In this document: positions 2,868 through 25,963 of the stretch, piece by piece
Layout: the number at the start of each line of letters is the position of its first letter
Numbering within the stretch: position 1 is the first letter of the stretch
From: Bacteroidales bacterium
Lineage (GTDB): Bacteria; Bacteroidota; Bacteroidia; Bacteroidales; ML635J-15
Length of the DNA stretch: 32,837 nucleotides
Reading direction: 5' to 3'
Assembly: GCA_027858835.1 (NCBI GenBank)
Contig: JAQIBY010000073.1
Location: forward strand, 1 to 32,837
Position numbers and translations under genes: made by a program
The notes under the pieces: model-generated
Databases searched by the model: none
What the model was told of the DNA's origin: nothing
What the model saw: the letters and a program-made list of their open reading frames with translations, nothing else

Positions 2868-3251
2868 CTATTTTGAAATGACACACCATTTTTCTTTGTT
2901 TTGCATAATTTTCACTAACATCGATAAAATGTGATCGTACTTGTCAGACAACTCAGCATGTAACTCTGCCGTGATATATCGACAATCTAAAGCAAAGTCT
3001 AACCATAGCTTAGTCTCATCAGCTTCTGCTTCTGAATCGGTTAACTTACTAAGAAAGTTTTTAGGATACTTTCTTCGTCTCCAAGCCTCTACAATGTTAC
3101 TAACTACTGAGCGAGATGATCTTTTTATTTGCATAGAAAGATCAAATCTCTCTTCGTCAGGAAAATCTTTAGTCATTCTAAAAATCTCCATTGCAGCCTC
3201 ATAAGCAACATTATAAACTTTTATATCTTTCGTCGAAGTAATGATAGCCAT
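2868..3251 (-). CDS. Four-helix-bundle protein, 23S rRNA IVP/Avd-like
   Basis: A 127-residue all-helical protein of the four-helix-bundle family (TIGR02436). The family is named for proteins encoded in 23S rRNA intervening sequences and is related to the Avd accessory proteins of diversity-generating retroelements. Family hallmarks are visible in the core QIKRSSRSVVSNIVEAWRRR (41-60), followed by FLSKLTDSEAEADETKLWL. The helices are amphipathic and basic, which fits nucleic-acid or multimer binding. The start is set at the ATG at 3251. An upstream extension to 3281 would add MFLLYLNKSN, which is not family-like. No reverse transcriptase, variable repeat or rRNA is nearby, so this is a solo copy. 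It splits the serine operon and is bracketed by inverted octamer repeats, which suggests a mobile or selfish cassette. Function unknown. Confidence 0.85.
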   Translation of the reverse strand: MAIITSTKDIKVYNVAYEAAMEIFRMTKDFPDEERFDLSMQIKRSSRSVVSNIVEAWRRRKYPKNFLSKLTDSEAEADETKLWLDFALDCRYITAELHAELSDKYDHILSMLVKIMQNKEKWCVISK

Positions 3252-3310
3252 GTTAGATTTATTTAAGTAAAGCAAGAACATCTAAATGCGAACTTAGCTT
3301 GTTTACTTTT

Positions 3311-7335: not shown

Positions 7336-8088
7336 ATGGAAACAAATAACCAAGAGTATCGGATTAGTTTTTTTAAACCATCAAACCCACAAACTACTGC
7401 AAATCGCAATATGGTTTTATGGCTATTATTAATATGGACAGTGGCTATTTTTGGCTTCCATGTTGTGCTAAAACTTATTGAAGAACCAACGCCTGAACCA
7501 ATCTTACTAAGCTATCAGGAGGTCAGTCAAAACGTATATCAGGGAAACGCAAGTTTGAATGAAATGCAAACTTTTGCGAAAGTCCCATTGCAGGTGTTAA
7601 GTAAAGTTTTTATTGTACCTGAAGAGCGCATTGAATTGCAAAATGCCTTGAATTGGGCTATATTCCAGATTGCTGATGATGAAGAAAAAGACGCACTGAA
7701 AGCCGAAATTGCGAATTTTAAAGCCATAGAGGAGAAAACAACAGATATCCTTGCACAAGACTATCAACAGGCAAAAATTGAATTAATGGCAGTTGCGGCT
7801 CCTATGCTTGGTCTTTCAGACCGAGATGTCAGAACTAAAATATTACCACTCGAATTAAACACCGAGTATCCGCAAAATATGTCTGAGGAAAATATTGCTC
7901 AGCTTGAAACGGTACTCAATAAATATTTGATTCATAACGAATCCGTACTAACCAATATGACAGTACTCGGATTTCCATTTCATTACTTCTACACGGCAGT
8001 GTTCCTTTTAATACTATTTGTTGTCCTCTGCTGGATTTATTGCGTTAGAACCGATGTACTGAACAAAAAGTACGGAATTGACGATTAA
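7336..8088 (+). CDS. Enlarged DUF4212-like symporter small subunit
   Basis: A 250-residue membrane protein. TM1 lies at about 27-47 (MVLWLLLIWTVAIFGFHVVL) and TM2 at about 213-237, starting with GFPFHYFYTAVF and ending in a positively charged RTDVLNKKYG tail. Both resemble DUF4212, the small subunit (about 80-110 residues) that precedes VC_2705-type sodium/solute symporters. Its place 38 bp upstream of such a symporter supports this. The unusual part is a roughly 150-residue helical, Glu/Gln-rich segment between the two helices (about 50-205). By the topology it should be extracytoplasmic. It could dock the porin or TPR partner, or bind substrate; both are inference. It is the first gene of the run. 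The family call rests on TM motifs and context. Confidence 0.72.
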   Translation: METNNQEYRISFFKPSNPQTTANRNMVLWLLLIWTVAIFGFHVVLKLIEEPTPEPILLSYQEVSQNVYQGNASLNEMQTFAKVPLQVLSKVFIVPEERIELQNALNWAIFQIADDEEKDALKAEIANFKAIEEKTTDILAQDYQQAKIELMAVAAPMLGLSDRDVRTKILPLELNTEYPQNMSEENIAQLETVLNKYLIHNESVLTNMTVLGFPFHYFYTAVFLLILFVVLCWIYCVRTDVLNKKYGIDD

Positions 8089-8126
8089 TTTTTAAAACTA
8101 ATTATTAACCAGAAATTTTACTTGTT

Positions 8127-9797
8127 ATGAAACGATTTATCACATTAATAATACTGTTATTATCATCCACAGTTATTTTTGCAGCAAATGCTGCTACTGA
8201 CCTTGAAGGCGGTTTCAAACTTGGGCCGGCGATTATTATGATTACAATTCTCGTTATTTTCGTCATGGTCGGAATAATTTTCCGTGCAAAAAACACCAAT
8301 GACTTTTACGCTGCCGGTCGTGGCATTTCAAAAGTTGGCTCAGGGATGGCAATTGCCAGTAATTGGATGAGTGCAGCCTCATTCCTCGGAATGGCGGCGC
8401 TTATGTACGGTTCCGGATACCATGGCTTATCCTACGTTGTCGGATGGACAGGTGGTTATGTACTCTTACTAATTCTTATGGCCGGACAAATCCGGAAATA
8501 CGGGAAATATACTGCCGCTGATTTTATTGGGGACAGATATTATTCCAGAACTCTCAGAGCAGTTGCCGCTGTGATTGCAATTCTAATTTCGATTGCATAT
8601 TGTGTCGGACAATTTGGTGGTATCGGACTCCTTTTTAAATGGATTATGGGAATTGAATACTGGCTAGCTGTTGTAATTGGGGGAAGTGTTGTGTTAACTT
8701 ATACATTAATATCAGGGATGCTTGGTGTAACTAAAAACATGCAGATTCAGTATGTCATTATCATTATCTCATTCTTAATCCCGTTGTTTATTTTAACCTT
8801 TAAATTTGATTACTTCTGGCTATTGCCTCAAATCGGATACGGATCTGTTGTTTCTGACATTGTTGGTGGTATTCCACTTGCTGAAACTGCCGATCTCGTT
8901 AATAAATACGGACATGAATTTGCAATGGTACCAATGCCAGAATATGCAATGCCATGGGATCCTGCAACCGGACAAACTTTCTTCCAATGGATTGCAATTG
9001 CATTCTCATTAATGATTGGGACTGCCGGACTTCCTCACGTATTGCAACGTTTTTACGTTGTGCCTAATGCAAAGGATGCTAGATGGTCTGTTGTATGGGG
9101 ACTTTTCTTTATTTGTATCTTATACTGGAGCGCACCGGTTTACTCTGCTTTCGGACAAATCCTTTCGGCTCACCCCGAAATTGGGGCCCTGGAAAAAGAT
9201 GCAATTGTCGTTTATACCGCACAACTCGGAAATATTCATCCACTAATTGTCGGATTCCTAGCCGCAGGGGGTGTGTCAGCGGCTTTTTCAACCGTTTCAG
9301 GCTTGCTTGTCGCCGGCTCTTCTGCTTTTGCCCACGATTTATACGTGAAAGTTTTCAGACCGGATTCATCTCCTAAAATCCAGTTGCGTATGGCACGTTA
9401 TGGCACCGTTGTAATGGCTGTTATTGTCGCATCAATTGCACTTTTAAAACTTGCACTAATTGGACAACTTGTTGCGGTGGCATTTTCCCTTGCAGGTTGT
9501 ACTATCTTCCCTCTGTTTCTACTCGGAATATGGTGGAGTGGCTCCAATAAACAAGGTGCAATTGCCGGACTGATTGCCGGAGGACTCGTATCCTTAATTG
9601 CAATTGCATACTTTATTGCAGGAACGCAAGGGGTTACACTACCATTCAATGAGTTTATCGATTATTATCTCGGCGCATGGTATTTTGCGGTTTTTGGAGC
9701 TCCATTGGCAATAATTGTGCACATTATTGTTGCAAAGTTAACCCCGGAAACGCCTATTGAAATCCGTAAATTCCTGACTGAAAGCGTACATTCTTAA
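8127..9797 (+). CDS. Na+/solute symporter, VC_2705 subfamily (acetate-like)
   Basis: A sodium:solute symporter family transporter with about 13 membrane helices. It opens with a signal-like segment ending AANAA (about 1-23), as seen in ActP-type acetate permeases. Family motifs include NDFYAAGR (57-64), SNWMSAASFLGMAALMYGSG for the unwound TM1 region, GTAGLPHVLQRFYVVPNAKDAR in the middle, and a Ser-rich helix (AAFSTVSGLLVAGSSAFAHD) that carries Na2-site residues in this fold. Its length of 556 fits. The subfamily works with a DUF4212 small subunit, which is encoded upstream. The substrate is probably a short monocarboxylate such as acetate, but it cannot be read from sequence. The stop overlaps the next start (TAATG), indicating translational coupling with the TPR protein. 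Confidence 0.93.
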   Translation: MKRFITLIILLLSSTVIFAANAATDLEGGFKLGPAIIMITILVIFVMVGIIFRAKNTNDFYAAGRGISKVGSGMAIASNWMSAASFLGMAALMYGSGYHGLSYVVGWTGGYVLLLILMAGQIRKYGKYTAADFIGDRYYSRTLRAVAAVIAILISIAYCVGQFGGIGLLFKWIMGIEYWLAVVIGGSVVLTYTLISGMLGVTKNMQIQYVIIIISFLIPLFILTFKFDYFWLLPQIGYGSVVSDIVGGIPLAETADLVNKYGHEFAMVPMPEYAMPWDPATGQTFFQWIAIAFSLMIGTAGLPHVLQRFYVVPNAKDARWSVVWGLFFICILYWSAPVYSAFGQILSAHPEIGALEKDAIVVYTAQLGNIHPLIVGFLAAGGVSAAFSTVSGLLVAGSSAFAHDLYVKVFRPDSSPKIQLRMARYGTVVMAVIVASIALLKLALIGQLVAVAFSLAGCTIFPLFLLGIWWSGSNKQGAIAGLIAGGLVSLIAIAYFIAGTQGVTLPFNEFIDYYLGAWYFAVFGAPLAIIVHIIVAKLTPETPIEIRKFLTESVHS

Positions 9798-10591
9798 TGA
9801 GCTTTTTAAAAAATAAAAATACGAGAGTCATCATATTTGTTATGGTGACCCTCGTTGCTGTTAGCCTTGTCGTTTCTAAGCTTTATTATCAAAACGTCAA
9901 TCGTGCGGTTGACCCTCGAATTGTGCCGGCACGAGAAATGTACGGACAATATAACGACATGGCACAAGCGAATGATTTTAACGGGATTCTGCAACTTCTC
10001 GATTCCATAGAAAACATCTATCAAAGCATTCCGCATTACGAAAATGCATTTGAAATGGGCGTGCTCGCCAACAACAGAGCGGCTGTATATTTAACCTTGG
10101 CAATGCATAAAGACAGCATCTTAGTTCCTGCAGAATCTCAATTTTTATTGAAGCTGGATAAGGATACACTGCTAAATATGGCAATGCATGATATCACAAA
10201 GGCCGTTGATATTTACGAACATTGGAAAGATGAATATGCATCCCTTACAGAAGCCCAATGCAAATCGAAAATTCAATCAGATTTCTTCGTGGGCCTTGAA
10301 GAATATCCTGAAAAAGAAAAAGAAAAATTCTTAAAAACCAGACTAACTACTTTCATGCAAAACCAAGTGGAAATTGACAGACGATTATCTGTGAGTTATA
10401 CAAACATGGGCATTGCATACAGACAGCTGGAGGAATATGATCTTGCGATTGCCGCTTACCGCAAAGCAATGGCACTTTGGGATAAAAACCTGACTGCTGA
10501 AAACAATTTGAATGTTTTACTCGGACGGCCGATGAAAGAGCCTTCTGTCATACAGAAACTTTTTCCGCCTGACAAAGAAAAATCAGAATAA
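9797..10591 (+). CDS. Membrane-anchored TPR protein
   Basis: A 264-residue protein with one N-terminal membrane anchor (about 10-28) and a soluble helical body that should face the periplasm. The clearest repeat is a canonical TPR at about 197-230 (SYTNMGIAYRQLEEYDLAIA with AYRKAMALW), and weaker TPR-like helices precede it. TPRs bind other proteins, so an assembly or scaffold role for the transport complex is plausible; this is inference. The start ATG overlaps the symporter stop by one base, the tightest link in the run, which argues for a subunit of the same complex. The next gene starts 21 bp downstream. No family name beyond TPR can be given. Confidence 0.75.
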   Translation: MSFLKNKNTRVIIFVMVTLVAVSLVVSKLYYQNVNRAVDPRIVPAREMYGQYNDMAQANDFNGILQLLDSIENIYQSIPHYENAFEMGVLANNRAAVYLTLAMHKDSILVPAESQFLLKLDKDTLLNMAMHDITKAVDIYEHWKDEYASLTEAQCKSKIQSDFFVGLEEYPEKEKEKFLKTRLTTFMQNQVEIDRRLSVSYTNMGIAYRQLEEYDLAIAAYRKAMALWDKNLTAENNLNVLLGRPMKEPSVIQKLFPPDKEKSE

Positions 10592-10612
10592 TCACTTAAA
10601 AAACTAATTGTT

Positions 10613-11893
10613 GTGAAAAATTTAAAACGCTTTATTATTATCGTCCTGCTGATGGTACCGATTGCTCTATCAGCTCAAAATTCTGATGAAGACAAACCTG
10701 ATTACGGAATTCATTGGTCAGGCTTCGTGAAAAATGATTTCTTTTTTGACACAAGACAAGTTGTATCAGCACGTGAAGGACATTTTTTATTATACCCTAC
10801 TCCTGTGAGTCTCGATGTCGATGATAAAGATATCAATGCACAGGGAGGCTTAAATTTCCTTTCAATTCAATCCAGACTTACTGGTAAAATTACCGGTCCG
10901 GATGCGTTCGGAGCAAAAACTTCAGGAGTAATTGAAGGTGCGTTTTTCGGACATTCAAATCTTGATATTAACGGATTTAGATTGCGACATGCTTTCGTAA
11001 AGCTCGACTGGACAAATACTCAACTATTGTTTGGGCAATACTGGCATATGATGTTTGTTCCCGAATGTTTTCCCGGAACGATCTCATTTAATACTGGAGT
11101 GCCGTTTCAGTATTTTTCCAGAAATCCGCAAATTCGATTGACACAAAAAATTGGTGATAATGCCAAGTTTGCTATTGCTGCTGCCACACAACGTGATTTT
11201 GCCAGCCCCGGTGGATACACAAGCCTAAGTAATGCAATGATTCCTGATATGCAGGCGCAATTCCAAATCAAAGCTTCTGATGCCTTATTGGTAGGTTTAA
11301 CCGGTGGATATAAAACCCTTAAGCCAAGATTATCAACGAATGCAAATTACATTGCAGAAAATACAGTTGGTGGGTTTACATCAAATTTATTCATGCGATT
11401 AAAAACAGAACCTATTACTGTTAAGCTTCAAGGGATATGGGCTCAAAATGCATTCGATGGATTAATGATTGGTGGTTTTATGATTAAGGATTTTACTGAT
11501 CCAGCAAAAGACTATAGGTCATATACCCCAATTAACACAATGAGCGCTTGGCTCGACATCCATACAAACGGCAAAAAGTACCAATTTGGATTATTTGCCG
11601 GTTATTCACAAAATATGGGAAGCTTTGATGAAGTGGCTGACACTGTCTTTAATGCTGGCATGAATACAAGCTATGCACGTGGAGCAAATATCGATTTTCT
11701 GTATAGAGTTTCTCCGAGAATGCATGTGAATTGCGGAAAATTTCGTCTCGCCGGAGAAGTTGAATATACCGTAGCTGCATATGCAACTGCTGATGAATTT
11801 GGCGCCCTCAACATTGACAAATACGGAAAAATTACAGAATCTGAAATGGTTGGAAACGTAAGACTTCTCATGTCTGCATATTATTTCTTTTAA
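10613..11893 (+). CDS. Porin-like outer-membrane beta-barrel protein
   Basis: A 426-residue protein with a signal peptide (about 1-21, cut after ALSA). The body alternates hydrophobic and polar residues, with glycine- and aromatic-rich strands, and the C-terminus is aromatic (SAYYFF), as in outer-membrane barrels. The stretch FGQYWHMMFVPECFPGTISF (about 140-159) resembles a conserved segment of DcaP-like and related Gram-negative porins. I am not sure of the exact family. In this operon it is a natural outer-membrane entry route for the symporter's substrate, by inference. The start codon is GTG at 10613, 21 bp after the TPR gene. Downstream, a 69-bp spacer leads to the phosphoesterase. Confidence 0.75.
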   Translation: MKNLKRFIIIVLLMVPIALSAQNSDEDKPDYGIHWSGFVKNDFFFDTRQVVSAREGHFLLYPTPVSLDVDDKDINAQGGLNFLSIQSRLTGKITGPDAFGAKTSGVIEGAFFGHSNLDINGFRLRHAFVKLDWTNTQLLFGQYWHMMFVPECFPGTISFNTGVPFQYFSRNPQIRLTQKIGDNAKFAIAAATQRDFASPGGYTSLSNAMIPDMQAQFQIKASDALLVGLTGGYKTLKPRLSTNANYIAENTVGGFTSNLFMRLKTEPITVKLQGIWAQNAFDGLMIGGFMIKDFTDPAKDYRSYTPINTMSAWLDIHTNGKKYQFGLFAGYSQNMGSFDEVADTVFNAGMNTSYARGANIDFLYRVSPRMHVNCGKFRLAGEVEYTVAAYATADEFGALNIDKYGKITESEMVGNVRLLMSAYYFF

Positions 11894-11962
11894 AAACAGA
11901 CTTGTAACAATAACGATTAACAACACGTAACATCATATACTCTATTGTAACAATTTTTGTTC

Positions 11963-12709
11963 ATGAAATTGGCATTTATCTCTGATATCCATGAGGACAT
12001 TGTAAGTTTACGGCTTGCAATTAGCATGCTCGAAAAATATAAGCCTGATAAATTGATTTGCTTAGGAGATATCTGTGGGTTTAATCCACTGTATTACAAA
12101 TACTTTGATCAAAGAAATGCCCACGAGTGTTTGCGCATCATAAAACAAAATTGCGATGTAATTCTTCCTGGAAATCATGATTATTATGCATCAAAATCTT
12201 TACCCGGAATTTCTCCGAAATTTGAATTTCCTGCAAATTGGTATGAACTGGATTATTTACAAAAACAAAAAATTGCAAACGGAAAATTGTGGGATTATGA
12301 GTATTCAGAACTAAATCCGATGTTGAGTCATAGCGATATAGATTTTCTTCAGAATCTTAAGCAAATTTGTCGGATTGAAACTGAAATGGGCGGCCTTTTA
12401 GCCTCGCATTATATTTATCCGAATTTGTCCGGGATGGAAGTGGGTTTTTGCAAAACACCGACAGATTATATCCCACATTTTGATTACATGAAAACTCATC
12501 AGGTAAATGTCGCAGTCGCGGGACATGCTCACGCCTCAAGATTATTATGTGTAACAAAACAGAAAATCCATAAAGTCAAATTCGGAAAAAAATGTGAAGT
12601 GGATAAGCAAATGATTTTACTCTGCCCCCCAATTGCCAGAGGTGCATTCAAACAAGGTTTTTTAATTTTGGATACAAAAGAGAAAATCTCTCGTGCCATA
12701 CGTATTTAA
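11963..12709 (+). CDS. Calcineurin-like metallophosphoesterase
   Basis: A 248-residue cytoplasmic metallophosphoesterase. All dinuclear-metal motifs are in order: SDIHED (DxH) near the N-terminus, CLGDICG (GD), PGNHDYY (GNHD), a later SHY histidine, and AGHAHASR (GHxH). The protein should therefore be active, on a phosphodiester or phosphomonoester that cannot be read from sequence. It has no signal peptide. The start is placed at ATG 11963; a TTG at 11957 would add only two residues. The gene lies between the porin and the nucleotidyltransferase sensor, whose start follows 12 bp later. If that enzyme modifies a protein or makes a nucleotide signal, this hydrolase is a candidate for reversing it. 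That link is a hypothesis from gene order. Confidence 0.85.
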   Translation: MKLAFISDIHEDIVSLRLAISMLEKYKPDKLICLGDICGFNPLYYKYFDQRNAHECLRIIKQNCDVILPGNHDYYASKSLPGISPKFEFPANWYELDYLQKQKIANGKLWDYEYSELNPMLSHSDIDFLQNLKQICRIETEMGGLLASHYIYPNLSGMEVGFCKTPTDYIPHFDYMKTHQVNVAVAGHAHASRLLCVTKQKIHKVKFGKKCEVDKQMILLCPPIARGAFKQGFLILDTKEKISRAIRI

Positions 12710-12721
12710 TGTTGTAACGCT

Positions 12722-15190
12722 ATGAAAAACAAATCACTACGCCGTGTTTTTATTGGGATTATACTGCCCTCTATCGTGGCTATCTTCTTGTTTTTTCTTT
12801 CTGTTTGGTTATTTATTATCCCAATCGTCGAGAAAAACATGATGGATAATAAAAAAGAAATGATTGGTGAATTAACAAACACTGCATGGAGCCTGATTGA
12901 CGAATTTTATCAGGATTATACCGACTCAATATACACTAAGGCGGAAGCCCAACAACTTGCAACATCCAAAATTGAGCTTATGCGTTACGGAAACGACGGG
13001 AAAGATTATTTCTGGATTAGCGATATGAGCCCTAAAATGGTGATGCATCCTTACAGAAAGGATTTAAACGGAAAATCTCTGAGAAATTACGAAGACCCCA
13101 ACGGATTTAAGCTGTTTGTTGAAGCAGTCAACATTGCCGAAGAATCCGGAGAGGGATATCTCGATTATTATTGGCAGCTTAGGGAAGACACAAGTCATAT
13201 CGTTCAGAAAATATCCTATGTTAAAGCCTTTCCTGAATGGAATTGGATTGTTGGGACTGGAATTTATATTGAAGATGTACAGCAGGATATTTCGGCACTG
13301 AAAAATCAAATTATCAACATATCCCTTGTCATTACAGGTATTATAGCTCTTATTCTACTCTTTATTATAAGACAAAGCTTTCGTACCGAGTCAAAACGAA
13401 GTCAGGCTGAAACAAGCTTAAAATCTTCACGTGAAAAATTCAAATCATTGGTAGAGGCATCTACTGAAGGCACTTTATTATTAGTTGATAATCAGGTGAT
13501 TTATGCAAATCAAACCTTTGCTCTATTTTCAGGGTATCAAACAGAGCAACTTTTAAGATTACGTTTTGATGACTTATTTGATATGTCATGGAAAACTATG
13601 TTGAAACGAATCGAAGAACCAGGAAAATCTGTTACCCTTGAGGGATACCTCAAAGACCATAATGGAAACCCAAAAGAAATGGTCATTTCTTTAAGTAAAA
13701 CCTATGCGCAAAATGAAACCAGAGTAATTGTTACTACGCGAGAACTAGGAATGCAGCAGCGCTTAAAAATTGCCGAACAGCAACTCAGTAAGGATATTGA
13801 AAATGCACTGATTATGATGAATCAACCGATTAGCCAATATGTTGAGTCTATCATTTCTTGTGAACCGGACTTCCCTATTTCAGCTGCAGCACAAAAAATG
13901 ACACGCCATAAAAAAGCATTTATCCTTGTGAAGCAAAATCAGCGATATCTTGGATTGGTAACACATGCAGACATTTGTGAAAGAGCGGTTTCCGATGGCA
14001 TTTCTTTGGTTGAGCCAATTACGGAAATAATGAGTGCTCCAATTCCTTATATTCAACATGATGCTTTAATGCCGGAATTACTGAATACATTTAAAGCAAA
14101 AACCACCGATTTTTTGTGTTTAAAAAATGCGCAAAATAAAATCACCGGAGTAATCGCTAAAACAGCAGTAATTAACCCTCATGGAAATGCAATTAGTGTC
14201 CTCTTGCAAGAAATTCAGCTTTGTGATACGGAAAATGATATGAAAGCGATTTTCCTGAAAGTACCTGCAATGATTCGTGGAATGATAAGCGGTGGCATAA
14301 AACCGGAAAATATAACCCGATTAATTAGTTCGGTGGTTGACAGAATTGCATGTCGGGCAATAGAGATTGCGATTGATGAGTTTGGATCAGCACCCTGTGA
14401 TTTTGCTTTTGTCGCACTAGGCAGTGAAGCCAGAGCAGAACAAACTTTGTTGACAGATCAGGACAATGCCATCATTTTTGATGATAAATTTGCTGATAAC
14501 CAGAATGCAATCGATTATTTCATGGAACTGGCAAATCGCGTAAACCACTTGATGCATAGTGCCGGCATTCATTTGTGTGATGGTGAAATTATGGCGAATA
14601 ATCCGAAATGGAATAAGCCATTAGCTGACTGGAAAGCCTATTTTACAAAATGGATACATAAAAGCGATCCGGAAAGTTTACTCGATGCGTCAATATTTTT
14701 TGACATGAAAGCAATTTATGGGCAAGATAAGTTTGTTGAGGAGCTTCAAGAACATATCCTTACTGAAGTGAAAAACAAAGCTGTTTTCTTTCAGCACATG
14801 GCTCAGATTATGATACAAATTAAAATGCCATCCGTAACTGCCAATGAAATAGACATAAAAAAAATAATGCTTCCACTGACCGGTTTTGCTCGGATTTACA
14901 GCTTGCGTTGTCCTGAATACGAGACAAATACTGTGAGTCGATTAAAATTAGCTGCAAAAAACAAACAAATTACACTTGCAGCGGAAAAAGACTTGCTTCA
15001 GGTTTATGATTTTTTGATGGGAAAACGCATTGAGCTGCAAGCTGATTTGATTCTGCAAGGAGAAAAACCCAAGAACGAAATGCAAACATCCGAACTTTCT
15101 GAATTTGAGTTAAGTGCTTTGAAAAAAGCGATTTCTATTCTTGCCGAATATCAAGTTCAATTATCTGCAGATTTTAAAGGCATGGTTTAG
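12722..15190 (+). CDS. Cache-PAS-CBS-DUF294 nucleotidyltransferase sensor
   Basis: An 822-residue transmembrane signalling protein. In order: TM1 (about 10-34); an extracytoplasmic single-Cache domain (about 40-195, with GNDGKDYFWISD and FPEWNWIVGTGIYIEDV); TM2 (197-217); a short linker helix; a PAS domain (about 237-342); a CBS pair (about 375-485); a DUF294 GlnD-like nucleotidyltransferase (about 495-640); and a helical DUF294 C-terminal domain (about 655-815). The nucleotidyltransferase motif GS-x10-DxD is intact (G567, S568, D579, D581), so catalysis is likely. Proteobacterial DUF294 proteins are typically cNMP-CBS-CBS-DUF294 and often lie next to VC_2705 symporters. Here Cache and PAS replace the cNMP domain. 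Small carboxylates are common Cache ligands. A role sensing the symporter's substrate and controlling uptake by nucleotidylation is inferred. It is the last gene of the run. Confidence 0.88.
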   Translation: MKNKSLRRVFIGIILPSIVAIFLFFLSVWLFIIPIVEKNMMDNKKEMIGELTNTAWSLIDEFYQDYTDSIYTKAEAQQLATSKIELMRYGNDGKDYFWISDMSPKMVMHPYRKDLNGKSLRNYEDPNGFKLFVEAVNIAEESGEGYLDYYWQLREDTSHIVQKISYVKAFPEWNWIVGTGIYIEDVQQDISALKNQIINISLVITGIIALILLFIIRQSFRTESKRSQAETSLKSSREKFKSLVEASTEGTLLLVDNQVIYANQTFALFSGYQTEQLLRLRFDDLFDMSWKTMLKRIEEPGKSVTLEGYLKDHNGNPKEMVISLSKTYAQNETRVIVTTRELGMQQRLKIAEQQLSKDIENALIMMNQPISQYVESIISCEPDFPISAAAQKMTRHKKAFILVKQNQRYLGLVTHADICERAVSDGISLVEPITEIMSAPIPYIQHDALMPELLNTFKAKTTDFLCLKNAQNKITGVIAKTAVINPHGNAISVLLQEIQLCDTENDMKAIFLKVPAMIRGMISGGIKPENITRLISSVVDRIACRAIEIAIDEFGSAPCDFAFVALGSEARAEQTLLTDQDNAIIFDDKFADNQNAIDYFMELANRVNHLMHSAGIHLCDGEIMANNPKWNKPLADWKAYFTKWIHKSDPESLLDASIFFDMKAIYGQDKFVEELQEHILTEVKNKAVFFQHMAQIMIQIKMPSVTANEIDIKKIMLPLTGFARIYSLRCPEYETNTVSRLKLAAKNKQITLAAEKDLLQVYDFLMGKRIELQADLILQGEKPKNEMQTSELSEFELSALKKAISILAEYQVQLSADFKGMV

Positions 15191-15298: not shown

Positions 15299-15547
15299 CT
15301 ACTCCTCTCCCTTTGCTTTTTTTAAATTATCCATTTGTCGTCGTACATAAAAGCCGAGAATGAAACCTGAAACCAGCATTGCAATTCCTTCCAATAGCAG
15401 TTCTTTTGTTTTCATTTCTGAGAAATATTCCGAAACACTCAATTCTGTGACGATGAGGATTCGGTACATATGAAAAAACAAAAACAGAAACATCCCGATA
15501 AGGAAACCTCGGGTTAGAATAAAGTAAAGCTTTTCTGATTTTTTCAT
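15299..15547 (-). CDS. Small two-helix membrane protein
   Basis: An 82-residue hypothetical protein with two hydrophobic helices (about 8-34 and 50-68), a short charged loop between them and a basic/acidic C-terminus (RRQMDNLKKAKGEE). I recognise no family. Its ATG overlaps the stop of the MscS gene in an ATGA tetranucleotide, so translation is probably coupled. It may be an accessory subunit of the channel, but nothing in the sequence proves this. It converges with the sensor gene across a 108-bp gap without a clear terminator. Confidence 0.7.
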   Translation of the reverse strand: MKKSEKLYFILTRGFLIGMFLFLFFHMYRILIVTELSVSEYFSEMKTKELLLEGIAMLVSGFILGFYVRRQMDNLKKAKGEE

Positions 15548-16635
15548 TCAGCTTTCGTGTTAGGAATTTGTTTTATGTACACATCTTGTTGCGGGAATGG
15601 AATGGTTACGTTATTTTCACGGAAACGCTTGTCAATTTCAAATCGCAATTCAGAGCGAATCGGTTCAATCCGAAATTGTTGCCTCGAGAAAAATTTCAAT
15701 GAAAAATCCAGCGAGGAGTTTCCGAAATCCTCAAAAAACACATATGGTGAAGGTGTTTTTTCAATGCTGGGATGATCATTTGCTACGCCAATCAATATTT
15801 TTTCAACTAAACGAACATCACTGCCGTATGCGACGCCAACATCCACACTGAAACGACTTTTCCTGGAATTATGTGACCAATTAATTACCTTTTCAGAGGT
15901 AAACATTGAATTTGGCACAATCATTATCACATCATCTCTGGTAACAAGTTTTGATGTTCTAAGGCTGGTTTCAACAACTTCTCCAATAAGTTCACCCTCA
16001 ATTTCAATTACATCACCAACTTTTATTGAATGGTCAAACAATATGACAATCCCAGAAACAATGTCGTTGAAAAAATGCTGAACACCAAGCCCGATACCAA
16101 CTAACAATGCAGAAACCGAGGCAATTAAGAAGGTGATACTAAAACCTAGCGACTGAATAAAAATACTGATTGCCAACACATAAGCAAAATATTTCATCAG
16201 CATGAAAACTGAGCGGGTTTTCCCTTTTTCAATTTCTTTTTTCTCCTGATATCGGTTAATCCCAGCCTCTATAATGAGAATGAGAAAGCGGGTACCTGTA
16301 AGCACAAAATACAGCAAAACCAAATGGTAAACAAGAATATTAACCTTTTGTGTATTAAAAACAACTGCTTGCAATACCACTTCTGTAGGAATTCCAACAA
16401 TTTTAAAAATTCCATATAACATGAAGTAGGTTGACAGGGAAAAGACAAAGCGTTTAATTGCCCGCGCATGCTTTGTCGAGAGCGAAGAAACTGTAGTAAT
16501 TTTTCTAGACAATCGATTACCATAGGTAATTAAAAAAATCCAAAATCCGATTATCAGTAAAACACTGAAAAGCTCCAACACCTGTAAACTAAAAACATCG
16601 CCATCAATCAGCGTGCTTGAAAAAAAATCTTTCAT
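15544..16635 (-). CDS. MscS-family mechanosensitive channel, long form
   Basis: A 363-residue inner-membrane channel protein. Hydrophobic helices are visible at about 18-38, 62-80, 98-122 and 143-162, ahead of the pore-lining MscS helix (about 168-200, containing LIASVSALLVGIGLGVQHFF and then NDIVSGIVILF). The beta domain follows (HSIKVGDVIEIEGELIGEV, with IVPNSMFTSEKVINWS) and then the mixed C-terminal cage domain. The extra N-terminal helices make it longer than E. coli MscS (286 residues). The role is release of solutes on hypo-osmotic shock, from family knowledge. The ATG overlaps the upstream esterase stop (ATGA) and its own stop overlaps the next start, giving a coupled trio. Confidence 0.92.
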   Translation of the reverse strand: MKDFFSSTLIDGDVFSLQVLELFSVLLIIGFWIFLITYGNRLSRKITTVSSLSTKHARAIKRFVFSLSTYFMLYGIFKIVGIPTEVVLQAVVFNTQKVNILVYHLVLLYFVLTGTRFLILIIEAGINRYQEKKEIEKGKTRSVFMLMKYFAYVLAISIFIQSLGFSITFLIASVSALLVGIGLGVQHFFNDIVSGIVILFDHSIKVGDVIEIEGELIGEVVETSLRTSKLVTRDDVIMIVPNSMFTSEKVINWSHNSRKSRFSVDVGVAYGSDVRLVEKILIGVANDHPSIEKTPSPYVFFEDFGNSSLDFSLKFFSRQQFRIEPIRSELRFEIDKRFRENNVTIPFPQQDVYIKQIPNTKAE

Positions 16636-17951
16636 CCTTCTTCAATAATTAATTTCTTTACAGTTTTTTTATCACGGTTTGACACTTGTATTAAATACAT
16701 TCCTTCCGGCAAACTACTGATATCTACTTTTACACTTACTTCTGACGTCCAGATATCTTTCACTTTTTTTCCGATGGAATTAAAAATTTCTATATGGTGA
16801 TTTTGTCCTGCTTCAAACTCGGTTTTTATCTCAACACAATCAATTGCAGGGTTTGGAAAAACATGAAATTCAGGGCTTAAGGATTGATCTGCTCGATGTG
16901 TTAAATCATCAACATACGGATTTACTGATGCCAGAAAGTCGATTCCATCATAAAAAATAGGAGCCCAATATTCACAAGGGAAGGAGTCCCGCTCCAGTTC
17001 TGTTAAACTCATTTCGCCACAACTGTAAAAGGCATGTGGCTGATTGGGATATGAATAAAACTCATGCGTCATTCCCAGGCTTTCCATATGTTCATGGATT
17101 GGCAGAGAACCATACAATGTAAAAGTTAAATTATACCCAGTTCCGAAATTAAAGGCAGAACCTTCATCGTAGGGAACAATATTATCTGCAGTTCCATGTA
17201 CCAACATAACTGGAATATTTTCTGTTGGTTCGATGTAATTTACATCCATTGTAGCACCCCAAAGTGCAATAACCGCGCTGACATCCGTTGTGTGATTAAA
17301 ATGGGAAGCTTCCAAACTTGTGCTTTCATCCAGCAAACCCAAATCAACATTATTGGCTCCATCATCAACTTCTCCAGCTTCGGGAATCCATTCGTCAGGA
17401 TTCATGAAAGCAGCATGTATAGCAGTAATTGAGCCGGCAGAATTTCCCAATAAATATATTTGTGTTGTATCAATTCCATATGTTTCGTGGTTGTGTTTGA
17501 AATACCTGACGGCGGCTCGTGCATCTTGAATTGCACGCCATGCTGCACGTTTCATACCGGTATCGGGACCAATGCTTTCTCCTCCCAAAACTGGATTAAA
17601 TCCAAGTCGATAATTGACCGCAGCAGCAACATACCCGTAATGTGCAAGTGAATCGCACCATGCAATCATATCCGGACGCTGTGAGCTACCCCGCAAAAAT
17701 GCACCTCCAAAAAAAGTTAAAACCAAAGGTCGTTTTGTCATGGTATCACTTTGTGGTGGTTGATACAAATCAAAATTAAGGTCTGCAGGGAGATTGACAC
17801 CATTAAATAATGCATCCCAAGAATCGGCATTCCCGTAAACGTTGTCATAGCTAATCTCTATTTCAGAAAACACGCTTTCCGTAAAGCGCTGTGCGTACAA
17901 ATTGCTTGTTATAGCAAAACAAAATAAAATACAAAAATAGCTTATTCTCAT
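16632..17951 (-). CDS. Secreted alpha/beta-hydrolase with T9SS type A signal
   Basis: A 439-residue esterase-like protein. It has a signal peptide (about 1-20, ending LYA), an alpha/beta-hydrolase core of the carboxylesterase/BD-FAE type, and a C-terminal T9SS type A sorting domain (about 360-439, FHVFPNPAIDCVEI to EGMYLIQVSNRDKKTVKKL). The oxyanion region is FFGGAFLRG (80-88). The likely triad is S171 in GNSAG, D256 in HGTADNIVP and H306 in QPHAFY. It should be exported across the outer membrane and anchored or released there. The substrate is unknown; carbohydrate or polymer esters are typical. It is a paralogue of the protein at 24891-25949, which lacks the sorting domain. Its stop overlaps the MscS start. 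Confidence 0.9.
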   Translation of the reverse strand: MRISYFCILFCFAITSNLYAQRFTESVFSEIEISYDNVYGNADSWDALFNGVNLPADLNFDLYQPPQSDTMTKRPLVLTFFGGAFLRGSSQRPDMIAWCDSLAHYGYVAAAVNYRLGFNPVLGGESIGPDTGMKRAAWRAIQDARAAVRYFKHNHETYGIDTTQIYLLGNSAGSITAIHAAFMNPDEWIPEAGEVDDGANNVDLGLLDESTSLEASHFNHTTDVSAVIALWGATMDVNYIEPTENIPVMLVHGTADNIVPYDEGSAFNFGTGYNLTFTLYGSLPIHEHMESLGMTHEFYSYPNQPHAFYSCGEMSLTELERDSFPCEYWAPIFYDGIDFLASVNPYVDDLTHRADQSLSPEFHVFPNPAIDCVEIKTEFEAGQNHHIEIFNSIGKKVKDIWTSEVSVKVDISSLPEGMYLIQVSNRDKKTVKKLIIEEG

Positions 17952-18228: not shown

Positions 18229-21200
18229 TCAATAAACCACCGTTACAATTCCGGTATAAGGATCATTTCCGTTGTGCAAATTCACTACATATATGTAACT
18301 TCCTGTTGGGACAAGTTTGCCGGTATTCGTTGTTCCGTCCCATGCTTTGTCGCCGGGACGAGCCTGATACAATTTTTGTCCCCAACGATTGAATACATAA
18401 ACAATATAATTGTCAAATAAATCAAGATTTTCGATTATCCATGTATCGTTATTATCATCAGCATTTGGAGTAAAAGCATTGGGGATACGGATACAGTCAA
18501 CAGGGTTATCGACAAGCGTGATTGTATTGAGCTCATATTGACAAGCATTGGCATCCTGCACAGCAATATTATAATTACCCTCCTGGAGATTACTTATTTC
18601 AAGAAATGGAATTGGGACACCATCAATAACAGCCATATACGGAGAAGTTCCACCAACTACCTGTAATGAAATATATCCATCAGTATTGCCAATGCATGAC
18701 GGATTCCCAGAAATGTAACTTAGCAGTATTTCGGAGGGCTGCTGTATTGTTAACGAAGTATCTGTCGCACATCCTCGTGAATCACTAATATGTAATTGAT
18801 AAATCCCTTCGGCTAATCCATTCGCAACAGAATCATTTGAAATTACACTCCCATTATAATACCATTGAAAATAATAGGGAGGTGTTCCCCCGGAAACATT
18901 AGCAGAAGCAGAACCATCCTCATAACCGTAGCAAGAGATGTTTGTTTTATGTAAATTCAGATAAAGTGCGGTGATGGGCTCATAAACATAAACACTGTCA
19001 ATAAATTGACAATTCTGATTGTCAGTAATGGTATAGGAATACCAACCTCCATTGAGGTTTGAAATAAGATTTCCGGTATTTCCGTTACTCCAATTTACCA
19101 CGAATGGTGAGTGACCACCGGAAATGTTTAGGCTAATTGCGCCATCGTTACTACCATAACATGAAATACTATCCACTGTTGCGATTGCAGTAATTGCAGG
19201 CGGCGAAATAAGTTCGGCACTGGCTGATCCAGCACAACCAAGCTCATCAATAACTTCCACCTGATAGTTTCCGGCCGGTAGTGAATTTATTGCTTGTGTT
19301 GTATATGCACCGGGTGACCAGAGATAAGAAAAAGGTGCTTGTCCATTATGTTGAGCGATTAATTCACCGTTGGCATCACCGGCACAGGCAATGTCGCTTA
19401 CAACATTTATCGAAACATTAAGATTTCCCACAGCATTAATTGTCATGCTGGTTTCTGCTGAGCAACCGTTCACATCCTCTACGCTTACGGTGTAGTTTCC
19501 AGCCGAAAGATTGGAAACAGATGCGGACGTATCGGGCAAACCATCCCATTGATATGTATATGGACCGCTTCCTCCGGAAACAGAAACACTGCAATTACCA
19601 GCTTGTGCACTGAGGCATAAAACGTCGGATGCACTGCCGGTTAATACAACTGTAGCAGGCTCGCTGAGGGTTTCACTGATTATCACCTGACATGAATTGT
19701 CATCAGAAACGGTGAGTGTATATGTACCTGCTGCAAGGTTATTGATATTAGGTACATTATCGCCAGTATTCCACAGCCAAGTATAATCTCCACTAATTGT
19801 TCCCCCGGAGGCAGTTGCGGAAAGACTTCCATCATTGTTTCCATTGCAAGAAAGCTGTTGCACGTCACTAAATGATACAGTCAGTTGGTCGGGTTCTCCA
19901 AGGATTATGCTTTGAGTGGATGTGCATCCATAAGCATCCTGCACATTAGCAATGTATGTTCCGGCAGACAGATTGGTGTAGCTATCGCCTGTTGTTAAGT
20001 CTGGCCATGTAAAAACAGGGGAATCTGCAGAGCTACTCACTTGAATACTGCCATCAGAACCACCATAACATAAAGGTTCAGCTGCATCAAGAATTGAAAT
20101 ATTAGGTTCTGCGTGAACTTCAATATCCACCTGGTCATTATCGACACATGAACCGGTTGAATTTTCGTAAGTTATTGTGTGAACTCCAACTCCGGCAACG
20201 GCAGGATCAAATTCACCTGTAGCAGGGTCGGTAATTCCGATTCCGGACCATGTTCCTCCAGCAGAGACAGCCGTCAAGAAAACAGATGATTCGTTCACAC
20301 AAAAATCTGTGCCTGAAGTAATTGTTGGATCGGGCGCATTTTGCACACTAATGGTTTCTGTGTCAGTATCAGCGCATTCTCCATTAACAATATCATAAGT
20401 GATGAGATAGTTTCCGGGAGTTAAAGCACCCGGATCAAATGCTCCTGTGGTAACATCAGTAATTCCTGTACCTGACCAAGTTCCTCCTGAATCTGTAGCG
20501 GAAAGTATCACTGGGCTGTCTGATCCACAAAATGGACCTGCCGGAGTAATATCGGCATTCACTGCTGCATACACATGAAAGGTTTCTGTATCACTGTCAA
20601 GGCAGCTCCCAGAGCCAATGTCATAAGAAATTGTAATGTCTCCGGAACCGGCTAGTGAAGAATCAAACGACCCTGTTGAAGCATCAACAATGCCTGCTCC
20701 AGACCATGTTCCGCCTGCATCAGCAGCAGACAGAAAAATAATTGCATCTGACGAACACATGTCTGCTTGAGCGGTAATGGTAGCATCTGGAGTTTCAAAA
20801 ACTTCGATATCAATATTATCTGTGCCTGTACATCCGGACATAGTAAGCTCGTATGTAATGGTGTTAATCCCAGTGTTAGCAGCCGATGGATCAAAAGTCC
20901 CAGCTGAGACATCAGTAATTCCAGTACCGCTCCAAATACCCCCTGTTGTAGCTGCTGTTAGGTTTGCCGCTGCATCATCAGAGCAAAAATCGCCAGGATC
21001 AGTAATTGTTGCATCTGGAATTGCATTAACGACAACACTCACATCATCGGAAGTTGTACAACCGTTAATGTCAGTAACTATCACAGTATATAATCCTGCA
21101 TCGGAAAGCGTAACAGGAGAAATAATTGGGTTTTGAATTATGGATGAATAACTTCCGGGGCCGCTCCAGCTCCATGAATTGGCATCTCCACCGGATTCTG

Positions 21201-24200
21201 TCAGGTTTAGTGTTTCTCCCACGCAAACCGCTGAATTGCTGCCGGCTGTAGCTCCCGGAATTGGATTTACTGTCAGTGTATAAGTTTCCTGCGATAATGT
21301 GCAAGGGACACCAAGCGGATTATTCGTTGTTACAGTAATACTAACTGTTGTGCCTGCATCCGCTGCTACCGGAGTATATGTAAAACTAAAAGGTGATGTG
21401 TTAAAATTGGTTGCATTCAGTGAACCGTTTCCACCATGCGTTAAATTTACTTCTGTAGCACTGCCTCCAAATGTATTCCCGCTAAGGGTTACCGAGTTAA
21501 CTCCACAGGTATTCCCTGTTGTGGAATTGAGTGTAACAGAAGGTGGATTCGAACACCCACAGTTTACATCCACAAGCGCACTTTCAACAGTACAACCCGT
21601 AGTTGTGTTAGATACCGTAACATAATACGTCCCATTTGACAATGAGCCAAAACTAGTACTTGACTGAAAGCTGCCACCAATGGAGTATTCGTAATCTGGA
21701 CCGGTTGGGCTGGTAATATTTATTATTCCATTGCCGTCACCGCCCGAGCAATCAACATTTGTAACCGGTATAGATGGTAGCGTATTTACACTTACTAAAA
21801 CATCATCCGTATTGGAACAGCCTCCGGCGTTGGTAACAGTAACAGTGTAAGTCCCACTTGCTGTTGCAGTAACACCGGTTATACTTGGGTTGTTTGCAGA
21901 AGAAGTAAAACCATTTGGTCCGGACCATGACCAAGAAGTGGCACCTCCACCAGTTTCTGTAAGCAATAAATCTTCGCCCTCGCAAAGCGGTGAATTGCTG
22001 CCGGCATTTGCAGTAGGATTTGGATTAACGGTAACTGTTGCACTCTCACATACAGATGTAATACAACCATTATTGTAATTCACATAATAGGTTTCTGATG
22101 CACTTAATGTTTGTGATATGTTTAATGGATTTCCGGTGCCAATAAATGTGCCTCCACAACTGCCTGTGTACCAATACACATCTCCGCTTGCCGGGGATCC
22201 TCCGGAAGCTGTCAATGTAATATTTGTTGGCGTTCCCGAACAAACTCCAGTTGGATTAGCTGTTGCAGAAATTGGTCCCTCAGCATTGAGGTAATGATGA
22301 AAAACAGCAGCTCCGGTACATGATCCGCCATTGACATATTGGTAACCACCGCCAACATTTGTTAGTCCACTGAATTTGCCGGTCAAATATAAATAGACAC
22401 TATCAGTAGTTGGCTCACCAATATCAAAACCATTGTACCCTGAATATCCTCCACTGAATCCGTAATAGCTCAACCAAGCCAAATAATCATTATCTAAAAG
22501 CTGTGCTAATAATATGTTACTTGATGTACCTGCCATAGTTTGATTATAATATTCAGCATGACTAATTGTTGAAAGTCCTGTAGGGCTTTGATGACCACAT
22601 ATCCACAAGTTATCATGCGAATCTTTTTTCAATTTTTTCATACTTGTGTAATCGGCACCTCCAAAAAAAGTTGCATAAACAATCGTCCCTGATGTATTCA
22701 CTTTAAAAAGGTACCCATCTTGCGTGCTAGCTTCATTTGCCGTAATTCCAGTACCATCATTGATGATTCCGTCATAATAAGTACATGCATCGCCAGGATC
22801 AACCACAGGAAAATTTGCGCTATACGTATGCCCTGTCATATACATGTTGCCATCTGAATCAAGCTCTGTGTCTCCATTTGCAGCACCAATATTTATTTTA
22901 TCAAATCCGGCTCCACCAATGTAACCACCCCAACTAGGGTCAGGTTGATTAGATGCATCAAATTTCATGTAGAACAAATCATTCGCTCCCTGATTAGTAT
23001 AAGTATCAGTAATCAATGCTGAAACAAAGCGGGTTGTCGAACTCCACATTTCATCACCTGCAATGTAAAACTCACCGGTGTTTTGATTGATGGCGATATC
23101 ACATGCTCTACCTGTATATGTATCTGCAGCAACTCCCGGAAGCCAGGTCGCCCAGATTAATGCGCCTGTAGTAGAAAATTCAATAATAAAACTTGTAGCA
23201 GTTGAAGTTCCGCTTAAATTTCCCTGATATCCAGACCCTGAAGGGATACCAGTGGAATAGGTAGGATAACCTCCTGATTTGCCAACTAAATATGTGTTTT
23301 TGCCTGCATCAAAATCTATATCGAAAGTCTCGAGATTAGCACCCTTGTCGAGATAGGTAGCCCATTGTCTAGTATTATCGGGAAGAAATTTCAATATGTA
23401 ACCACGTGTACCTATACTCTGTGTAGCATCCCATCCTTGATAAAAAGCGCCAGCCCAGTTTTGCAATGGAAAATCACCGGATCCCATACTAAACTCTTTT
23501 CTGCTAGTTCCTGAAATAAATAAATTATCATCATGATCAATGCCAACTGCACCATTTACATCATCATCTCCGGAACCACCATATAAACAAGCCCATAAAA
23601 GTGCTCCATTTGGTCCAAACTTAGATATAACAATATCATTATTACCCGTTACAGTGCCATATGTGATTGTACTTCCAGCACTACTAAGATAATCAGCGAC
23701 ATCTGTTGCATCCGGACTCCATTCCCAATCGACTACATAGTATTCTCCTACGGAATTAGCAACCATTTCTCCCCAGCTACCATATCCATTATATTCCAAT
23801 GAACTTGCCCAAAATAATCCCGGATCTAAAATCAACTTCTGTTGCTCATTATAATTAGCGACATCAAATTTTATATTGTTTCCCTCCACAACATACGCTG
23901 TTTCAACGACTTCCTTTCCAGAAAAAGAAATAGGAGCTTTATCCGTAAAAGTAAAACTCCCGACATTGAATTCCACCTGATTTTTGCCGTTCATATAGAG
24001 TTTTTCAACACCTTGCCAGTTCATTTCAATTAAAGATGGATTCCCGCCCGGATGAACAATAAATTCATATTTTAGGACAGATTCATCTTGATAAAATACC
24101 ATATCAATATTGGGATATATATTATTGTACTTTACTTTGTTAAATGATGGAACATTCAGCAAGCCATCAGGACAATGTGGCAGATAAAAGTCATTTTTTA

Positions 24201-24890: not shown

Positions 24891-25949
24891 TCAAAACCTC
24901 TTATTATCCCCTTGACTGTGTTTTAACAAAAAATCCAACCCTAAATTATAAACTACAGGCCAATCTTTTCCCGGAAATTTTTTACGACGAAGTTCTCGTA
25001 TTGAAATTCGGCCATCGCTGTGAAATGCATGTCCTTTTCCCGAATAAACATGATAATCATGGGCTTTCCCGATTTTAAGTAAATAGTCATGTATGCTTGC
25101 AGAACCATGAATCTGCGGCATAAACCACATCCGCTTCCCAATTGTAAAAACAGTCCCGTCCCCTACTGGAATAATTTGGTCTTTCTCTCCATGAATTAAG
25201 AGTACTTCGGTTGGATTATCCGGCTTTATATAGGACAAGTCAGAAATACCGCCCCACAATGCAATTACACCCTTCACATCACAAGTGTGCTGCAAGTAAA
25301 TTGGATGGAAATTTGAGCTACTGTCCAGACTTCCAAGAAAAGAATTGTTTCTTCCGGAGCCACATCTTTCAGCCTCAGGGATTGTTTCGGCCCCATCCAT
25401 AAATGCGGTATGTAAGGCAATAATTCCTCCCGATGAACTCCCTATTAAAAACATCTGTGTTGTGTCAATCCCAAATGATTGTGAATGATGTTTAAAATAT
25501 CGTATTGCCGCGCGACTATCCTGTATTGCTCTCCAACTCGCCCGAAGCATGCCGGTTTTTGGACCAATATTTTTCCCGGAAATCAGAGGGTTAAAGCCTT
25601 TTCTATAATTAATTGCTGCAGCAACAAATCCCTGTCCAGCCAAACTGTCACACCAGGAAATAACATCCGGGCGTCTATTTGAGCTGCCAAGAAAACTACC
25701 GCCATTAATTAACATAACAAAGGGATATGATTTTTCTGGATTCATCTCTGAAGGTCGATATAAATCAAATTGTAGGATTTTTGGTGAATTAACGCCCAAT
25801 CCAATTAAATCCCAAGAATCAGCTTGTCCAAAAGGAATATCATATATCACATTAACGGCATCTTGTGTCTGTGATTTCTGTGAAAACACAAATTGAGTCG
25901 CTAAAGCAAATAGCATAATAAATGTCGATATTTTCCTCCCCAAAATCAT
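24891..25949 (-). CDS. Periplasmic alpha/beta-hydrolase, tail-less paralogue
   Basis: A 352-residue esterase-like protein from ATG 25949, with a signal peptide ending FVFSQ. It is clearly paralogous to the protein at 16632-17951. Shared blocks include SWCDSLAGQGFVAAAINYRK against SWCDSLAHYGYVAAAVNYRL-like text, GPKTGMLRASWRAIQDSRAA, and FKHHSQSFGIDTTQMFLIG. The likely triad, numbered from the TTG at 25958 (subtract 3 for the ATG start), is S175 in GSSSG, D260 in HGEKDQIIP and H310 in GKGHAFHSDG. It stops right after the hydrolase fold and has no T9SS tail, so it should stay in the periplasm unless sorted another way. The TTG at 25958 would add three residues but overlaps a -7 box. Substrate unknown. 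Confidence 0.88.
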   Translation of the reverse strand: MILGRKISTFIMLFALATQFVFSQKSQTQDAVNVIYDIPFGQADSWDLIGLGVNSPKILQFDLYRPSEMNPEKSYPFVMLINGGSFLGSSNRRPDVISWCDSLAGQGFVAAAINYRKGFNPLISGKNIGPKTGMLRASWRAIQDSRAAIRYFKHHSQSFGIDTTQMFLIGSSSGGIIALHTAFMDGAETIPEAERCGSGRNNSFLGSLDSSSNFHPIYLQHTCDVKGVIALWGGISDLSYIKPDNPTEVLLIHGEKDQIIPVGDGTVFTIGKRMWFMPQIHGSASIHDYLLKIGKAHDYHVYSGKGHAFHSDGRISIRELRRKKFPGKDWPVVYNLGLDFLLKHSQGDNKRF

Positions 25950-25955
25950 AATCTT

Positions 25956-25963
25956 CAAAAATA
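25956..25963 (-). promoter_or_regulatory. Putative -7 box of second esterase
   Basis: TATTTTTG on the minus strand matches TAnnTTTG, but it ends only 6 bp before the ATG at 25949. Transcription from it would give an almost leaderless mRNA. No good -33 is seen. It lies 6 bp from the opposing box at 25970-25977. Confidence 0.3.

Follow-up and report, generated by a model that had tools for sequence, protein, structure and literature searches.

A six-gene run from Bacteroidales as a probable uptake unit for small carboxylates with its own receptor

Results

Six genes in one orientation

We analyzed a 32,837-nt stretch of DNA from a Bacteroidales bacterium (hereafter the window; contig JAQIBY010000073.1, one whole contig of a genome that measures 3.6 Mb and is 99% complete), and focused on a run of six genes at 7336–15190. 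Calling of open reading frames (ORFs) placed all six on the + strand (Table 1) and reproduced the coordinates and gaps of an earlier note on this DNA, which had listed an enlarged DUF4212-like subunit, a VC_2705 symporter, an anchored TPR protein, a porin-like barrel, a metallophosphoesterase and a Cache-PAS-CBS-DUF294 sensor. Pfam and NCBIfam searches agreed with these families, and the porin was recovered by profile match and structural model. The intergenic gaps were 38, −1, 21, 69 and 12 bp, such that the start of gene 3 overlaps the stop of the symporter gene. The 69 bp gap is counted from the ATG of gene 5, and it becomes 63 bp if gene 5 starts at the TTG picked by the ORF tool. No terminator-like sites were found on the + strand between the six genes, promoter-like sites across the run occurred at chance level (25, versus 27.6 ± 4.7 in shuffles), and the next gene downstream of the sensor is an ORF on the − strand.

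Table 1. Genes of the six-gene run, followed by other features of the window
Feature	Product	Position	Strand	Remarks
Gene 1 (D4212L)	Enlarged DUF4212 small subunit	7336–8088	+	250 aa
Gene 2 (SSS)	VC_2705-family sodium/solute symporter	8127–9797	+	556 aa
Gene 3 (TPR)	TPR protein with N-terminal membrane anchor	9797–10591	+	264 aa
Gene 4 (POR)	DcaP-like outer-membrane porin	10613–11893	+	GTG start, 426 aa
Gene 5 (MPE)	Calcineurin-like metallophosphoesterase	11963–12709	+	ATG at 11963, 248 aa; alternative TTG at 11957, 250 aa
Gene 6 (sensor)	Transmembrane Cache-PAS-CBS-DUF294 sensor	12722–15190	+	822 aa
Giant gene	Large surface or secreted protein	18229–24639	−	2136 aa
Esterase-like 1	BD-FAE/carboxylesterase-like protein	16632–17951	−	
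Esterase-like 2	BD-FAE/carboxylesterase-like protein	24891–25958	−	
Channel 1	MscS-type mechanosensitive channel	15544–16635	−	
Channel 2	MscS-type mechanosensitive channel	27824–28642	+	
23S rRNA-intervening-sequence ORF	23S rRNA-intervening-sequence protein family	2868–3281	−	

The importer genes

The Pfam DUF4212 family matched D4212L at 48.6 bits (cut-off 30), but covered only residues 205–249 in the C-terminal part. Hydropathy placed transmembrane helices at about 27–45 and 219–237, with a helical domain at about 55–198 between them. Each half of D4212L aligned on its own with short DUF4212 proteins (84 and 115 aa), and the extra stretch, an insert of about 150 residues, sits exactly between the two membrane helices. 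The insert was all-helical in an AlphaFold2 model of the protein (pLDDT 90.6), and hydropathy together with the distribution of positive charges predicted it to be periplasmic. D4212L resembles the VC_2705-type two-subunit symporters of TIGR03647/TIGR03648 in being a DUF4212 protein with two membrane helices encoded directly upstream of the symporter, but at 250 aa with a helical insert it differs from the typical small subunit of roughly 80–115 aa, which has no soluble domain. A sequence-profile search of the PDB with the insert gave no match under E 0.22. Foldseek found nothing for D4212L at E ≤ 0.001 (best 0.44) and the best VIA match had Z 6.0 at a root-mean-square deviation of 9.4; these fold searches included the membrane helices, and helical folds score middling Z values, so that the null results do not make the fold new. 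Our literature search on DUF4212, alone or with 'symporter', found no papers, which is weak evidence of absence, subscription papers lying mostly outside the search.

Gene 2 matched SSF in Pfam and TIGR03648 at 493.9 bits (cut-off 320.75). Because TIGR03648 carries no named substrate, we dropped the attempt to read a substrate from the symporter sequence alone. In gene 3, Pfam detected TPR_1 at residues 200–227, and hydropathy gave a single N-terminal membrane helix at residues 11–29. Since positive charges precede this helix, the TPR part should be periplasmic.

Gene 4 had no Pfam or NCBIfam family match, but a profile search linked it to the porin DcaP (6eus) at E 1.6e-6. Its AlphaFold2 model (mean pLDDT 85.1) is a barrel that begins at about residue 32, behind a signal sequence, which gave substance to the earlier suggestion of a porin-like barrel. 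The best fold match was again DcaP (Z 31.4, root-mean-square deviation 2.8, 328 aligned residues, 16% identity), followed by a fold at Z 25.3. The model has the 16 strands of a DcaP-type barrel, a count read off its secondary-structure line and not measured, whereas the extended periplasmic N-terminal coiled coil of DcaP is missing: the barrel of gene 4 starts at residue 32, and DcaP aligns from residue 66. We rejected a TonB-dependent or SusC-like identity for gene 4, as its best folds were DcaP and general porins. DcaP family porins are required for carboxylic acid catabolism in Acinetobacter, according to the available text of PMC12338516.

The same porin family also lies beside a short DUF4212-SSS pair in genome G046 (L218) and beside a DUF485-SSS pair with a sensor in genome G447 (L219). 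In two loci titled Cytophagales (L038, 13238–14656; L049, 10386–11804), the porin position holds a 472-aa protein with a signal-like N-terminus. No Pfam family was found for the L038 copy, and the protein is possibly a different porin.

The sensor and the phosphoesterase

Gene 6 contains the Pfam domains sCache_2, PAS_9, CBS, DUF294 and DUF294_C. The sCache_2 domain (residues 40–191) lies between membrane helices at 18–36 and 197–215, and is followed by PAS, CBS, the DUF294 nucleotidyltransferase (153.9 bits, cut-off 21) and DUF294_C. The pol-beta type motif of the nucleotidyltransferase, GS...DxD, is complete (G567, S568, D579, D581) and invariant in 28/28 aligned sensors. The transmembrane sensor that had been proposed is thus a receptor with two membrane helices and all catalytic motif residues.

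The sCache_2 domain aligned to the structures of PscD and Adeh_3718 at E near 1.5e-27. The accessible text of PMC5062169 describes binding of acetate, glycolate, propionate and pyruvate by PscD, propionate contacts at Tyr90, His103, Tyr143, Lys156, Trp92, Trp145 and Phe126, and a crystal of the PscD-related Adeh_3718 with acetate. The equivalent residues of gene 6 are Y96, H109, Y149, K163, W98, W151 and F132, and all seven are invariant in the 28 aligned sensors. The same pocket was present in 22 distinct sensor genes from other loci (the window's included), also in those beside DUF485-SSF pairs. According to the same source, three of the seven residues are common across the sCache_2 family at large, and for this reason it was important to use other sCache_2 domains of related genomes as a control (n = 12). 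None of the 12 had all seven residues and the best had six, although one control domain (L202) is truncated and unable to show all seven. These results suggest that the sensor likely detects C2-C3 carboxylates.

Gene 5 matched Metallophos (PF00149) in Pfam and has no membrane helix, and its product is probably cytoplasmic. Its metal-binding motifs DxH, GD, GNHD, H and GHxH are all retained, with D8, H10, G35-D36, G70-N71-H72-D73, H149, G187-H188 and H190 invariant in 21 aligned rows.

Recurrence of the run in related genomes

A search of 84,980 species genomes with D4212L yielded 140 relatives. We retained the 80 best, and the resulting 80 loci lean toward close relatives. Their neighborhoods were read by profile search, and the counts below refer to loci with enough readable downstream sequence. 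The symporter directly followed D4212L in 79/80 loci (70/70 with at least 1.7 kb). The TPR gene was present in 63 of the 64 loci with at least 2.6 kb, and the sole exception (L095) has a broken symporter frame. At L095 (10217–12751) the symporter and porin frames are in pieces and the TPR gene is missing, which marks either a decaying copy or assembly errors. A porin lay downstream in 28/50 loci with at least 4.3 kb, the phosphoesterase in 18/45 with at least 6 kb, and a same-strand sensor in 22/39 with at least 8.6 kb, two more sensors being convergent. All six families, whose co-occurrence in relatives the earlier note had proposed to check, were found in one order and on one strand in ten of the 80 loci, contiguously in nine. 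This repeated order and orientation among relatives shows that the six genes are more than a chance run. The genes upstream of the run, encoding a DUF5698 protein and a DUF58 protein, had no phmmer match in the 80 loci.

Spacing was conserved as well. The symporter and TPR genes overlapped or lay within 5 nt in 41/66 loci, and a sensor directly behind the TPR gene began within 11 nt in 7/7. The porin-phosphoesterase gap was wider (median 73 nt, n = 9), similar to the 69 nt of the window. The short spacings point to coupling of the genes. In addition, every phosphoesterase gene that was not the last in its contig stretch was trailed by a sensor gene (20/20 across the 80 loci), which fits the dedicated partner implied by the suggestion of a possible opposing hydrolase.

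Among 392 genomes of the phylum, D4212L occurred in five (a sixth match was a short DUF4212) and a Cache-type sensor in 14, Cache-bearing sensors being counted from match ranges that start below position 11. A sensor was present in 5/5 genomes with D4212L and in 9/387 others (Fisher p = 2.7e-8, uncorrected for kinship), where 9/387 is a lower bound because at most two candidates were scored per genome. In four of the five D4212L proteins of this sample the insert is shorter, giving a total length of about 235 aa.

We concluded that the run has a near-constant core of D4212L, the VC_2705 symporter and the TPR protein, to which the porin is an optional addition and the phosphoesterase and sensor genes a movable pair. 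The pair lies beside SSF symporters without D4212L in five genomes of the phylum, with DUF485 (L214, L215, L219) or without it (L216, L217). Sensors of the same type elsewhere adjoin DUF485-SSF pairs or different SSF symporters, the phosphoesterase being present in some cases only, and two such symporters match the MctC and ActP models, though under cut-off. One locus (L036) comes from a record titled Candidatus Delongbacteria (GH39), but the same contig occurs in a genome assigned to the genus of the window, which casts doubt on either the title or the bin.

The link to acetate

Acetate–CoA ligase family genes were found within five genes in 6/80 loci, most of them under record titles that name Delongbacteria, Cloacimonadota and Armatimonadetes, and the one adjoining ligase tested scored 765 bits against NF003313 (cut-off 729). 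Judged by what is known of the families, the importer is likely one for small carboxylates, and its substrate is likely acetate or another C2-C3 carboxylate.

Two further gene arrangements were seen. A glycine C-acetyltransferase gene lies near the importer, together with acetate–CoA ligase, at L115 (2698–3945) and also at L110, L101, L091 and L104. At L138 (3064–6879, − strand), a 1272-aa ORF matches propionate–CoA ligase over its first half and acetate–CoA ligase over its second, each match exceeding the cut-off, and adjoins a CBS-DUF294-type protein and an exonuclease.

Other features of the window

Outside the run, the giant gene (Table 1) encodes DUF7948, SprB repeats, Ig-like domains and a CHU_C type IX secretion signal; the product is a large surface or secreted protein. 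It is flanked by the two esterase-like genes, one of which carries a Por_Secre_tail secretion tag. The 23S rRNA-intervening-sequence ORF also has a bAvd-like match below cut-off.

Discussion

From the genes, families, sequence-based topology, pocket and catalytic residues and recurrence established above, we think it probable that the run serves the uptake of acetate or closely related C2-C3 carboxylates and brings its own dedicated receptor. The DcaP-like porin would pass small anionic acids across the outer membrane, and the symporter with its enlarged DUF4212 subunit would drive them over the inner membrane, probably with sodium, as is usual for the family. The D4212L insert and the anchored TPR protein may meet in the periplasm and act there on the symporter by regulating it or holding it in position, perhaps close to the porin; a physical link that spans the periplasm is speculative. 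The sensor would bind the acid in its periplasmic Cache pocket and, as expected of CBS domains, might read the adenine-nucleotide state. DUF294 could then nucleotidylate a target, for which a protein involved in acetate transport or activation is the likeliest candidate, and the phosphoesterase could strip this mark again. A nucleotidyl mark that is placed on a protein by the sensor's transferase and erased by the phosphoesterase is plausible. A stronger version, in which one protein senses acetate outside and answers by nucleotidylation rather than phosphorylation, the phosphoesterase erases the mark, and a symporter-TPR bridge to the porin makes the whole a single regulated trans-envelope assembly, seems to us quite doubtful.

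Several observations weigh against the main reading, an uptake unit with a dedicated receptor. The sensor pocket speaks for a C2-C3 carboxylate and not for acetate alone, given that pyruvate and propionate would fit too. No AcsA-type acetate–CoA ligase scored over cut-off in the window's own genome and none was found in the window; because that genome encodes acetate kinase, and also an ORF of 730 aa that contains a succinyl-CoA-ligase-like domain, another route of acetate activation is possible. The phosphoesterase is not obligatory: at 30 places in related genomes where a sensor lay outside the importer stretch (which may mean merely another contig, as the importer contig is cut in some genomes), it was directly upstream in 16, and in 14 it was absent or beyond the readable stretch, some of these being contig ends. 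Loci with short-insert D4212L, symporter and sensor (L208–L210) lacked the TPR gene in 3/3 readable cases. Of the 30 genomes that had D4212L and no adjacent sensor, 17 had a sensor elsewhere and 13 gave none anywhere at E ≤ 1e-20, such that the importer can do without it. Lastly, the available text of PMC5715377 reports a negligible phenotype on acetate for deletion of Pflu5625, a cNMP-CBS-nucleotidyltransferase of the Pseudomonas fluorescens acetate regulon (CrbS/R), which also includes a DUF485 protein.

The chemistry of the DUF294 domain may be read differently, in that it could act on a small molecule or RNA, or regulate without any transfer, instead of modifying a protein. No target is known, phosphoesterases can cleave many phosphodiesters, and the 3'-5' exonuclease beyond DUF294 in canonical operons (see below) would suit a nucleic-acid product. 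Catalytic loss in the sensor is unlikely because GS and DxD are invariant, and overall we consider this alternative rather unlikely. The protein-nucleotidylation prediction in PMC5715377, in the text available, itself rests on earlier family analysis and not on an assay.

A second alternative concerns the composition of the unit. The importer (genes 1–4) and the phosphoesterase-sensor pair might have a substrate in common but otherwise be independent modules that lie together only in some genomes, with the sensor governing acetate metabolism at large rather than this symporter. In the same-genus genome G001 and in genome G004, the pair indeed lies on a different contig from the importer, between unrelated genes (in G001, genes 1–4 are together on one contig); in G044 and G057 the pair is present and DUF4212 was not found; and the neighboring DUF485-SSF symporters and the 13 sensorless genomes mentioned above fit this idea as well. 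By comparison, 22 of the 24 adjacent sensors that could be read share the strand of the importer, seven loci have a sensor close behind the TPR gene, and no D4212L genome in the phylum sample is without a sensor, so that we hold full independence to be unlikely. Nonetheless, we rejected the six genes as one invariant unit, given the genomes without a sensor, the separable pair and the optional porin. The earlier reading of the set as an extended import unit therefore stands insofar as the families recur together, but they do so as nested modules and not as one fixed unit.

Export or exchange of acetate as a fermentation product is highly improbable: many hosts are sediment Bacteroidales, which record titles suggest are probably fermenters, and the window's genome has acetate kinase but no AcsA over cut-off, yet SSS symporters are established uptake systems, an extracytoplasmic pocket of high-affinity type and a porin suit scavenging, and canonical relatives adjoin acs (3/7 annotated regions).

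The probable uptake unit with its receptor is of wider interest. Members of DUF294 are found alongside acetate symporters in several phyla, and in this case the putative signal can be read from the sequence itself. With the outside C2-C3 pocket and the nucleotidyltransferase on one polypeptide and the putative eraser in the adjacent gene, ligand, writer and eraser could be examined together in a single reconstitution. The role of DUF4212 in such symporters may likewise become accessible through the enlarged small subunit.

Among known systems, DcaP resembles gene 4 in fold, but its identity to gene 4 is low and it has the coiled-coil extension that gene 4 lacks. The PscD/McpP sCache_2 sensors, as far as described in the available text, share all seven ligand-contact residues with gene 6, but their output is a chemotaxis signaling domain instead of PAS-CBS-nucleotidyltransferase. 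Pflu5625 likewise joins CBS and nucleotidyltransferase domains in acetate use, with a cytoplasmic cNMP input in place of transmembrane Cache and PAS, and its regulon uses a separate SLC5-STAC histidine kinase, unlike the window system (both from the accessible part of PMC5715377). MctS/MctR, which controls MctP (PMC9100948, available text), also sets a Cache-domain sensor beside an SSS carboxylate symporter, but consists of a histidine kinase and response regulator; the MctP model of NCBIfam reached only 99.8 bits in the window (cut-off 700).

The closest known relative is an operon annotated in Alphaproteobacteria, and for this reason the system is less novel than its description as undescribed suggests. 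On plasmid 1 of Paracoccus denitrificans PD1222, acs, DUF4212, SSS, DUF294, a hypothetical gene and a 3'-5' exonuclease gene are consecutive. Annotated plasmids carry a near-identical operon in Limimaricola, whereas the Ruegeria version lacks acs and that of Skermanella lacks both acs and the exonuclease. In Hymenobacter, exonuclease and DUF294 occur with no transporter. Across seven such plasmid regions, hand-chosen among matching records and not random, DUF4212-SSS was present in six, DUF294 in five, the exonuclease in four and acs in three. Within Bacteroidota, the exonuclease lies beside DUF294 in G046 (L138) and Hymenobacter, and in three further loci read with 1.5 kb flanks it gave a weak match in one and none in two. 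The window shares with this operon the small subunit directly before the symporter, the CBS-DUF294-type protein downstream, an adjoining hydrolase and the acetate link. It differs in the predicted periplasmic domain of the small subunit, in the inserted TPR and porin genes, in the two membrane helices and the Cache and PAS input of the sensor, and in having a metallophosphoesterase in the usual place of the exonuclease, which is not among the sensor's neighbors. The operon skeleton is thus known, and the differences lie in the sensor input, the hydrolase, the small subunit's periplasmic domain, and the addition of a TPR protein and a porin.

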